Below, piece after piece: positions 14,826 through 19,195 of a stretch of 64,000 nt of DNA (the first letter of the stretch is position 1; the number at the start of each line of letters is the position of its first letter). Under the pieces are notes generated by a model. The model was not told the DNA's origin. It saw only the letters and a list, made by a program, of their open reading frames with translations, and did not search any database. This DNA comes from a bacterium (GTDB lineage Bacteria > Hydrothermota > Tepidihabitantia > SM23-42 > JAOAFX01): positions 62,001-126,000 of the forward strand of contig DASVHD010000029.1 in NCBI GenBank assembly GCA_036382775.1, given 5' to 3'. Position numbers and translations under genes: made by a program.

Positions 14826-15587
14826 ATGAACCCCATAACTGCTCAAATCGCATTACCTTCTTTGGGTAAAAGAAGCCCGATCCTGACGTTCTACCAGCGG
14901 AACCTGAAGTTGGCTTATTACCTGACCAACTTCGGACTCCTGGCTTTGATCCTCTTGATCTTTGGTTACATCAGGTATCAGGCATGGCGTCTCGAGGAGT
15001 TTAAGAGGAAAGGCATGACTGACTCCGGCAAGAAGATCATCTCCCTGACCTATGCGCAGCTCGGTCCGCCGCCGTCCATTCAGGGCGCCGACGCGGCCGG
15101 CGCGCCGCAGGCAGCTGCCGGCGCACGGCCAGCAGCTCCGGTCGTCGGCGTGCCCAAACCGGTGCCTGATGCAGAGGCGGTGATGGAAACATCGCCGGAT
15201 CAATCCATGATATCCGGCACCAGCGCACTCGATGCGGGAACCGGCGGGGAAAGCGGCATGGCAACCGAGATCAAGGTCGATGAAGGCATCCCGGACATCA
15301 ACGCCTACGTGCCGGTCGATATCCCGCCCAAGGCTATTGTCCAAAGGCGGCCGATCTATCCGGAGATCGCCAAGAAGGTAGGAATGGAAGGCACGGTCTT
15401 CGTCAAAATGCTCCTTGATCTTGACGGGACGATAATGCGCGTCGTGATCCTGAAAAGCTCCGGTTTCCCTCAGCTCGATACCGCGGCCGTGGTTTGCGTG
15501 TCCGACTGGAAATTCTCGCCGGCGATACAGAACAAAAAGCCGGTCCGGGTATGGCTGGGCGCGCCGGTTAAGTTCAAACTCGAGTAG
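14826..15587 (+). CDS. tonB: TonB-family energy transducer, first copy
   Basis: A protein of 253 residues. A cytoplasmic start of about 30 residues (IALPSLGKRSPILTFYQRN), one helix (LLALILLIFGYI), an Ala/Pro-rich spacer in the periplasm (about residues 80-120), and a C-terminal TonB domain (YPEIAKKVGMEGTVFVKMLL ... VILKSSGFPQLDTAAV). It spans the periplasm and pulls on outer-membrane receptors. GGGAGG precedes the start by 8 nt, and it is the last gene of the exbB operon. A paralogue lies at 18446-19195. Confidence 0.92.
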   Translation: MNPITAQIALPSLGKRSPILTFYQRNLKLAYYLTNFGLLALILLIFGYIRYQAWRLEEFKRKGMTDSGKKIISLTYAQLGPPPSIQGADAAGAPQAAAGARPAAPVVGVPKPVPDAEAVMETSPDQSMISGTSALDAGTGGESGMATEIKVDEGIPDINAYVPVDIPPKAIVQRRPIYPEIAKKVGMEGTVFVKMLLDLDGTIMRVVILKSSGFPQLDTAAVVCVSDWKFSPAIQNKKPVRVWLGAPVKFKLE

Positions 15588-17303: not shown

Positions 17304-17336
17304 ATTGCGCGATGCATTTTTTTCCAAATCTGAATG

Positions 17337-17363
17337 GGGGCAGGCGTTAACTGTTAACCATAT
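17337..17363 (+). repeat. Left inverted repeat of the RAYT element
   Basis: 27 nt beginning GGGGCAGGCGTTAAC; pairs with 18316-18342 with one mismatch at position 16. It contains the palindrome GTTAACTGTTAAC. Confidence 0.85.
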
Positions 17364-17365
17364 AC

Positions 17366-17393
17366 TTGACTATGACTATTTTTTGTATATACT
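17366..17393 (+). promoter_or_regulatory. Promoter of the RAYT gene
   Basis: TTGACT (17366-17371), a 16-nt spacer and TATACT (17388-17393), starting 3 nt inside the left repeat. The GTG start is 5 nt after the -10 box, predicting a leaderless mRNA. Confidence 0.8.
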
Positions 17394-17398
17394 GATCC

Positions 17399-18301
17399 GT
17401 GGCAAAAAGACCGCGTCTGAAAGGAAGGGGAGTCTATCATCATATCTATGCCTGGAGCAATGACCGGCATCTGATTTTCACTAATGATGATCATTATCAA
17501 AAGTATCTGAACTTATTAGCTCGATATAGTGTGCATTATGATCTGGACATTATAGCTTATGCCTTGATGGACTGGCACGTGCATCTCTTTGTGCATGATA
17601 ATCATGAAGAAATTTCACGTTTCATGAACAGTCTGCATGGCGAGTACGCGCAATATTTCAACAAGACCATCAAACGGGTTGGGCATGTTTTTGGCGAGCG
17701 ATACAACAATAAAATCGTACAGGCTAATCCATATGGTTTATGGTTATCAAGATATATTCACCGCCAAGCGGTAGCGGCCCGGCTTGTGAAAGATCCTAAA
17801 AATTACCCTTGGACAAGCTATCGGGCTTACATCGGTTTACAGCCTTTGAATTTTCTGCAGCCAGGCGTAATCTGGGAGCAGTTCGGAAGTACTAAGGATA
17901 GGAAAAGCAAGGTTTTGATCTTTCGACGATATGCAGATTTTATCATAGACGGTGATGACGGACCGGTTGATTGGGGTAAAAAAACAACGCCGATAATTGG
18001 TGATCATACTTTTATTAAACGAATTGCCACTCGTATTGATAAAGAGACGGAAATGGGTACCTCTGCAAAACCGTCGTTTAAGGGCGACCTACAGGATTTG
18101 CTTAAGGCAATCAGCGCGCAGTATGATATCGACATGAAACGCCTGGTCAATCCGACCAATAAAGATGATCGGCAATTACGCAGACAGGTTTATGATATCC
18201 TGATCAATGAATATCATTTATCATTACGGACCATCGGGCGGCTGTTCCATATCTCAGCACCAGCCGTCTACAAAGCAGTCGGTAAACAATCATTCACGTA
18301 A
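17399..18301 (+). CDS. REP-associated tyrosine transposase (RAYT, Y1/HUH family)
   Basis: A protein of 300 residues. The HUH motif is HVH (His60, His62) in MDWHVHLFV, and the likely catalytic tyrosine is Tyr119 in LSRYIHRQ; the motif YPWTSYRAY follows, as in RAYT proteins. These enzymes cut and join single-stranded palindromic (REP) DNA. The C-terminal part (about residues 215-300) ends with a helix-turn-helix (LSLRTIGRLFHISAPAVYKA) similar to the DnaA-type C-terminus found in some RAYTs. The start codon is GTG. Codon use looks more AT-rich than that of the neighbours, consistent with transfer. Confidence 0.9.
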   Translation: MAKRPRLKGRGVYHHIYAWSNDRHLIFTNDDHYQKYLNLLARYSVHYDLDIIAYALMDWHVHLFVHDNHEEISRFMNSLHGEYAQYFNKTIKRVGHVFGERYNNKIVQANPYGLWLSRYIHRQAVAARLVKDPKNYPWTSYRAYIGLQPLNFLQPGVIWEQFGSTKDRKSKVLIFRRYADFIIDGDDGPVDWGKKTTPIIGDHTFIKRIATRIDKETEMGTSAKPSFKGDLQDLLKAISAQYDIDMKRLVNPTNKDDRQLRRQVYDILINEYHLSLRTIGRLFHISAPAVYKAVGKQSFT

Positions 18302-18315
18302 TATAAGAGAACTCA

Positions 18316-18342
18316 ATATGGTTAACGGTTAACGCCTGCCCC
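18316..18342 (+). repeat. Right inverted repeat of the RAYT element
   Basis: 27 nt; reverse complement of the left arm with one mismatch; internal palindrome GTTAACGGTTAAC. It begins 14 nt after the transposase stop codon. Confidence 0.85.
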
Positions 18343-18445: not shown

Positions 18446-19195
18446 ATGAATAACATAACTCACCAAATAGCCCTACCCTCCTTGGGCGGGCGCAGCCCGA
18501 TACTGCGCTTCTATCAGGTTAATCTTCGGCTCGCTTATTACCTCACGAACTTCGCGTTGCTGGTTCTGATACTGGGGATCTTCGGCTACGTCAAATACCA
18601 GGAATGGCGCCTTGATGAGCTGAAAAGAATAACCGGTAAGGACAATGGCCCGATCGTCATTGAAATACCGTACTATAAATTAGATCCACCACGGTCAATT
18701 CTACCTGATGATAATATCAACGCCCTGGTTCCCAAATCCCCAGCGCCCGTAGTCCGGGGTAATCCCGTGCCGGTACCAGATGCTGACGCGCTTGTGGAAA
18801 CATCGCCTGATCAAACTGACATTGTCGGCTCCAGTATAAACGACTTAACCGCAAAAGTTGACAACGGTCAGGTAGTGATCAAAGTCAAGGATGATATCCC
18901 GGATATCGGCGAGTATGTTCCATATGACATTCCGCCAAAACCGGTCGTCCAGAAACCGGCAGAATATCCGGAGATCGCCAGGAAAGTCGGCATGGAAGGA
19001 ACGACGTTCGTCAAAATGCTCCTCGATCTTGACGGTTCGGTCATGCGCGTGGCGGTACTGAAGAGCTCGGGTTTTCCGCAGCTCGACACCGCCGCGGTTA
19101 AATGCGTCCTGGACTGGAAATTTTCACCTGCCATTCAGAACAACAGGCCGGTGAGGGTATGGCTGGGCACTAATATAAAATTTAAATTGAAATAG
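18446..19195 (+). CDS. tonB: TonB-family energy transducer, second copy
   Basis: A protein of 249 residues, paralogous over its whole length to the TonB at 14826: same N-terminus (QIALPSLGGRSPILRFYQ), same helix position (LLVLILGIFGYV) and same C-terminal domain (YPEIARKVGMEGTTFVKMLL, VLKSSGFPQLDTAAV). The Ala/Pro spacer differs and is shorter. It has its own SD sequence (AAGGAAGGG) but no exbB or exbD of its own. The two copies also share their 3' flanks, which points to segmental duplication. Confidence 0.92.
   Translation: MNNITHQIALPSLGGRSPILRFYQVNLRLAYYLTNFALLVLILGIFGYVKYQEWRLDELKRITGKDNGPIVIEIPYYKLDPPRSILPDDNINALVPKSPAPVVRGNPVPVPDADALVETSPDQTDIVGSSINDLTAKVDNGQVVIKVKDDIPDIGEYVPYDIPPKPVVQKPAEYPEIARKVGMEGTTFVKMLLDLDGSVMRVAVLKSSGFPQLDTAAVKCVLDWKFSPAIQNNRPVRVWLGTNIKFKLK

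Follow-up and report, generated by a model that had tools for sequence, protein, structure and literature searches.

A probable TIRYT element whose inverted ends combine an outer block with two tandem boxes

The window considered here, a 64,000-nt stretch of bacterial contig DASVHD010000029.1, contains a RAYT-like transposase gene enclosed by inverted ends, and the question raised by this locus is whether gene and ends move together like an insertion sequence and, if they do, which part of the protein reads which part of the ends. As the best explanation with the mechanism taken as a whole, we regard the unit as probably a TIRYT element, i.e., one built on a terminal-inverted-repeat-associated Y1 transposase. 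The features needed for the discussion are the following, with amino acid positions given for the window transposase.

17336 to 17345, plus strand: outer block of the left end, GGGGGCAGGC, matching the GGGGnCAGGC-type block of related ends
17337 to 17363, plus strand: left terminal inverted repeat (TIR), 27 nt
17346 to 17352, plus strand: box 1 of the left end, GTTAACT, a tandem match at lag 7
17353 to 17359, plus strand: box 2 of the left end, GTTAACC, up to which six end copies agree
17366 to 17393, plus strand: promoter-like site TTGACT-16-TATACT, not above chance as a scan
17399 to 18301, plus strand: TIRYT-type transposase ORF, 300 aa, GTG start
aa 13 to 123, plus strand: Y1/HuH domain (Pfam Y1_Tnp)
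17576 to 17584, plus strand: HuH motif H60-V-H62, alignment columns H60 and H62 nearly invariant
17753 to 17755, plus strand: candidate catalytic tyrosine Y119, column nearly invariant, role presumed
about aa 229 to 296, plus strand: DnaA-domain-IV-like HTH, from profile and structure matches
18095 to 18277, plus strand: coding part of the DnaA-like HTH, aa 233 to 293 (Pfam Bac_DnaA_C)
18316 to 18342, minus strand: right terminal inverted repeat, 27 nt, with the outer block and two boxes on this strand

The transposase gene and its ends

The Y1_Tnp domain of the protein scores 44.4 bits against a Pfam cut-off of 23, and Y119 is presumably the catalytic tyrosine, as in the Y1 family. The AlphaFold2 model has a mean pLDDT of 91.9, and the top PDB fold match of the protein is 4er8, which we take to be the E. 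coli RAYT in complex with a REP hairpin; the NCBIfam model REP_Tyr_transpos matches with E=2e-9, under its cut-off. Bac_DnaA_C likewise matches under its curated Pfam cut-off (E=5.5e-5, 23.6 bits, cut-off 31.5), and the last 85 positions of a profile built from 61 relatives match DnaA chains (PDB 3pvp, E=1.7e-7, and 1j1v, 1.5e-6). The C-terminal part of this same-family profile also matches frames of ~450 aa in another phylum, which are probably DnaA itself. Judged by these matches, the C-terminal domain of the transposase appears to be related to domain IV of DnaA. In the wider genome contig collection, a protein search confirmed no close homologue of the window protein, and the 23-nt end had zero exact matches.

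The first-pass annotation described 27-bp, almost perfect inverted ends around an AT-rich RAYT gene, and both points are borne out. The arms pair at 26 of 27 positions, with one mismatch, and are the sole inverted pair of at least 14 nt between 17200 and 18500; their pairing score is 24, whereas 300 places drawn at random from the window average 9.3; the highest of these draws also scored 24 and probably hit the element itself. The GC content of the element is 42.5%, compared with 52.5% for the whole window. The window end runs from GGGGGCAGGC into GTTAACT-GTTAACC, and the internal GTTAAC palindromes noted earlier, although each word is indeed palindromic, are better read as two tandem direct copies of 7 nt. 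A hairpin reading of GTTAAC was rejected, as either end folds no better than its shuffles (z −0.33 to 1.23), and no GTAG..CTAC hairpin pattern was found in the 3 kb around the left end (locus L010). The promoter thought to overlap the left end does have a counterpart, a promoter-like site ending 5 nt before the start codon, but this site begins 2 nt inside the end, without overlap; since 6 such sites were found where 3.4 (sd 2.0) were expected, TTGACT-16-TATACT is not significant by itself.

Copies of the ends and mobility of the unit

Searching for the end elsewhere, as had been proposed, located four further sites in the window genome (G000, 51 contigs) and none in the other genomes searched. 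The 23-nt core has six exact copies in this genome, two at the element and four solo (on C2, on C35, and two on C37), with 0 matches for a reversed control pattern, and it is absent from 149 of 149 other genomes searched with up to 2 mismatches allowed. In alignment, the six copies are identical through box 2 and diverge soon afterwards. With ORFs of at least 60 aa considered, the four solo ends are intergenic, one overlapping a 68-aa ORF by 6 nt, and no inverted partner with 7 or fewer mismatches lies within ~1.5 kb on each side of them. On C2, the solo end of the window type adjoins a stretch (CCAGACTGTCTTGTTTTGTATGG, ~1540-1600 of L013) that resembles the hairpin repeat of L007, a sister-type element described in the next section.

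The genome holds one full copy of the unit against four solo ends. RAYTs had been described as usually single-copy, a rule from which this genome departs, with Y1_Tnp matches at nine places. A second TIRYT has its own end in 11 copies, two at the element included, and of its six dispersed loci that were examined, five consist of inverted pairs in the manner of MITEs; a third, whose gene has two in-frame stop codons, has its own end in 12 copies, again counting two at the element, and all eight dispersed loci examined are single ends. RAYT fragments also lie at three contig ends (the end of C29 and the starts of C51 and C21; L122-L124), as if a near-identical, multi-copy RAYT had broken the assembly.

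Mobility was assessed in TIR-bearing relatives, on the 85 pairs that align over 90% or more of the element and have flanks to compare. In 50 of these pairs both limits of homology lie no more than 12 nt from the ends of the element, from which it follows that whole units move among the related elements; homology continues through both flanks in 9 pairs, crosses one edge only in 3, and stops inside the element in 23, in several of them ~95 nt short of the right end, within or close to the sequence that encodes the HTH. Eleven of the 50 both-edge pairs are at least 80% identical; the pair L085-L145 reaches 95.9% over 1005 nt with offsets 0/0 at both edges, and L082-L143, at 87% identity, comes from genomes of different families. 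The sub-clade of the window element contributes none of the 50, and four of its members (L026, L031, L033, and L034) have flanks in common, which indicates vertical inheritance. The notion that the unit moves like an insertion sequence is therefore supported for the kind but not for these four cousins, and we infer movement of the window element itself.

At the locus, two tonB-like paralogues, 62% identical (14826-15587 and 18446-19195), flank an M48 gene, and the element sits before the second of them. The M48 gene was matched in 20 order-level relatives and in none of three genomes of the window's own family; in the 13 relatives' loci examined, no RAYT lies within ~1.5 kb of it and tonB is beside it in 0 of 13, so that the M48-tonB order is not kept. 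Ends confined to this place, around a gene with the same position in all relatives, would have pointed to vertical inheritance; with the end at four other sites and no RAYT near M48 in the 13 loci, the pattern is a different one. A joined-flank search in six genomes gave no clean empty site for eight related elements, and neither a target rule nor a target duplication was seen among the sites. The site of L159, compared across loci G023:C4, G015:C38, G013:C114, and G017:C140, has a full TIRYT in one species, and in three congeners another insert, of roughly 230 nt and with GGGGTCA at its ends, or decayed remnants.

Plan of the related ends and the protein domains that follow them

The first set comprised 117 RAYT loci, of which 116 gave a match and 105 were uninterrupted by contig ends. 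Inverted ends scoring at least 14 are found at 85 of the 105 uncut loci (83 of 101 without four duplicate loci), a score reached by 4.25% of 400 mismatched pairings. A G-block can be recognised close to the edge in 61 of 79 non-redundant ends. A tandem match of 6/7 or better is present in 49 of these 61, and in 4 of 61 of the inner stretches next to them (Wilcoxon p=6e-10); the lag is mostly 7 (30 ends) or 8 (15 ends), and 36 of the 61 do better than shuffles of the same end (p<0.05). For a later set, 57 loci were taken, 49 of them uncut and 40 with ends; the removal of two near-copies, seven ends without the block, and one short frame left 30 ends, and there tandem boxes occur in 20 of 30 ends against 5 of 30 control stretches (p=2e-5). 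From these sequences, the related elements appear to have a common plan, namely an outer G-rich block followed by two copies of an element-specific word of 7-8 nt.

All relatives with boxes belong to one phylum and come mostly from draft genomes. Ten plasmid regions in other phyla include several with G-block TIRs and none with clear tandem boxes, and profile searches around G147 and G149 (1 and 17 genomes of other phyla) returned few RAYTs and mostly DnaA-looking genes. On plasmid NZ_CP116719.1 (L213), two short transposase genes have almost the same 32-nt inverted ends. A sister type (L007, L130, and L131, RAYTs of 267-270 aa) has the DnaA-like tail too, but hairpin flanks instead of linear ends; the flank of L130 folds far beyond its shuffles (z −6.8). 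Comparing linear-end and hairpin-end sister types could reveal how the end type switches.

The two parts of the ends were related to the protein domains by partial Mantel tests on 58 ends of the first set. The outer block correlates with the Y1 domain (partial r=0.376, p=0.002) and less with the HTH (0.083, p=0.054), the inner boxes correlate with the HTH (0.214, p=0.002) and not with Y1 (0.012, p=0.40), and the middle region of the protein correlates with both end parts (0.309 and 0.101). The outer-Y1 link was replicated in the later set (0.463, p=0.001, n=30): outer-block similarity follows the Y1 domain in related elements. The inner-HTH link keeps p≤0.03 in the first set under varied cut and shift, is lost (0.005) among 20 representatives under 60% Y1 identity, and was not reproduced in the later set (−0.030, p=0.65, and 0.055, p=0.23, when restricted to full-length proteins). 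Pooling (n=87) gives the inner boxes 0.162 with the HTH (p=0.002), 0.130 with the middle region (p=0.002), and 0.050 with Y1 (p=0.17), and under an earlier, cruder split the HTH was no stronger than the middle region.

Within one clade, the GGGGTCAAAT clade of 30 elements (L287 was left out, as its reading frame seems wrong at the C-terminus), the box word varies in step with the recognition helix. When the residue after the helix valine is H, Y, or C, the last base of box 2 is T in 14 of 16 elements, and when it is N or S, this base is A in 14 of 14 (Fisher 2e-7, a value blind to phylogeny). The next helix residue goes with box 2 position 3, M with C in 6 of 7 and K with G in 6 of 6, while Q occurs with A, G, or T alike. 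On a tree built from residues 1-228, with the HTH domain left out, a Pagel test of helix residue against box word gave LR 17.8 (p=0.0014), for a pattern noticed before testing and hence post hoc. The combinations GAYL/CTACAT and MS(C/Y)Q/TAAACAT-TTGACAT each appear at two separate places of the tree among other types, and L257 is an exception to the code. Some Y1 columns, too, associate strongly with box position 7 in this clade, and the ranking of protein columns by box association is suggestive only. A 'Met with ACTT' rule for the window clade is broken by L029 and L031. L029 is the only other PAVxK helix among the aligned members, and it has this core and TTAAC boxes (at lag 7, judged by eye) in common with the window element at an HTH identity of 30%, a pattern of two cases.

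Readings of the unit and its place among known systems

In the mechanism that we consider likely, the HTH would bind the two boxes as duplex DNA, which may be double-stranded DNA or a stem formed by both ends when the strand is single, and would thereby place Y1 at the outer block, for the cutting and joining of single strands in the manner of IS200/IS605 and RAYT enzymes. On this view, the solo ends would be REP-like products or remnants of transposase activity. More tentatively, we propose a two-part address, in which Y1 would read the outer G-rich block and the HTH the two tandem 7-8-nt boxes by means of a few recognition-helix residues, helix and both boxes changing together while the catalytic part stays constant. 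If true, Y1 transposases would have a protein-DNA specificity code that can be read, and a few residues would suffice both to infer the specificity of these enzymes and to test it. It would also answer a question raised by Quentin et al. 2018 (PMC6006769), according to whom the HTH domain may have no role in target recognition or may have evolved for a new target; the inner boxes are a concrete candidate for what it binds.

The single full unit beside four solo ends could also be explained by a domesticated, immobile RAYT, whose protein spreads only the short solo ends while the gene stays put. REPs are presumably spread by RAYTs in a similar way, and the flanking DNA common to the four cousins, like the 9 of 85 pairs of TIR-bearing elements with both flanks in common, fits such a gene. 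We nevertheless judge this explanation unlikely, because in 50 of the 85 pairs homology goes no further than the two ends, also across families, and because the element is AT-rich relative to its surroundings. The start of the promoter-like site 2 nt inside the left end would suit yet another role for the boxes, that of an operator at which the HTH represses its own gene, the HTH-box link then reflecting autoregulation instead of transposition specificity; that these boxes recur at the right end and in the four distant solo copies makes this quite improbable, although operator and transposition roles could coexist. We give similarly little credence to an ordinary IS200/IS605 or REPtron unit with ends read as single-strand hairpins, for which the Y1 fold, the best PDB match to a hairpin-bound RAYT, and the below-cut-off REP_Tyr_transpos match would speak: the window ends fold at chance level, in contrast to the hairpin-type cousin flank, and the GTAG..CTAC pattern is absent around the left end.

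The TIRYT reading, which we prefer, places the unit among elements already described. Di Nocera et al. 2013 (PMC3733652) gave the name TIRYTs (TIRtron) to RAYT-like genes enclosed by long inverted repeats, with GGGGWSAS in the majority, not all, of the ends and families of dispersed ends in some species only. According to Quentin et al. 2018, most TIRYTs belong to TnpA-Y1 subclass 2.1, with a C-terminal Bac_DnaA_C/HTH domain (Bac_DnaA_C, HTH_23, or HTH_28). The window unit has the Y1/HuH transposase with a DnaA-like C-terminal HTH, long terminal inverted repeats unrelated to GTAG REPs, a G-rich end motif, and dispersed end copies in the genome; since it fits the published TIRYT/TIRtron, the combination of gene and ends is already known in kind, and what seemed surprising about an inverted-end RAYT had mostly been described under that name. 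It differs in that its blocks, GGGGGCAG on the left (one base off) and AGGGGCAG on the right, are one or two bases away from the published GGGGWSAS, which many relatives fit. In the passages of the TIRYT literature that were consulted, neither tandem boxes nor an HTH-bound sequence is described.

With the RAYT/REPtron, represented by E. coli TnpA-REP, the unit has in common the HuH/Y1 fold and flanking repeats with dispersed solo copies, but its ends are linear and inverted, its protein has an extra C-terminal HTH, and the GTAG-tagged REP hairpins that flank such genes are absent from the element. IS200/IS605 elements move through a single-strand circular intermediate and insert 3' of a set tetranucleotide, without target duplication. 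Their TnpA resembles the window transposase in the Y1 catalytic fold and in forming a small one-gene unit, whereas the window unit encodes extra domains and, instead of subterminal hairpins at non-inverted ends, has terminal repeats that are inverted and non-folding. Finally, the C-terminal domain and its short boxes in tandem recall DnaA domain IV, and the difference from DnaA boxes is that those of TIRYTs, of 7-8 nt, vary from element to element.
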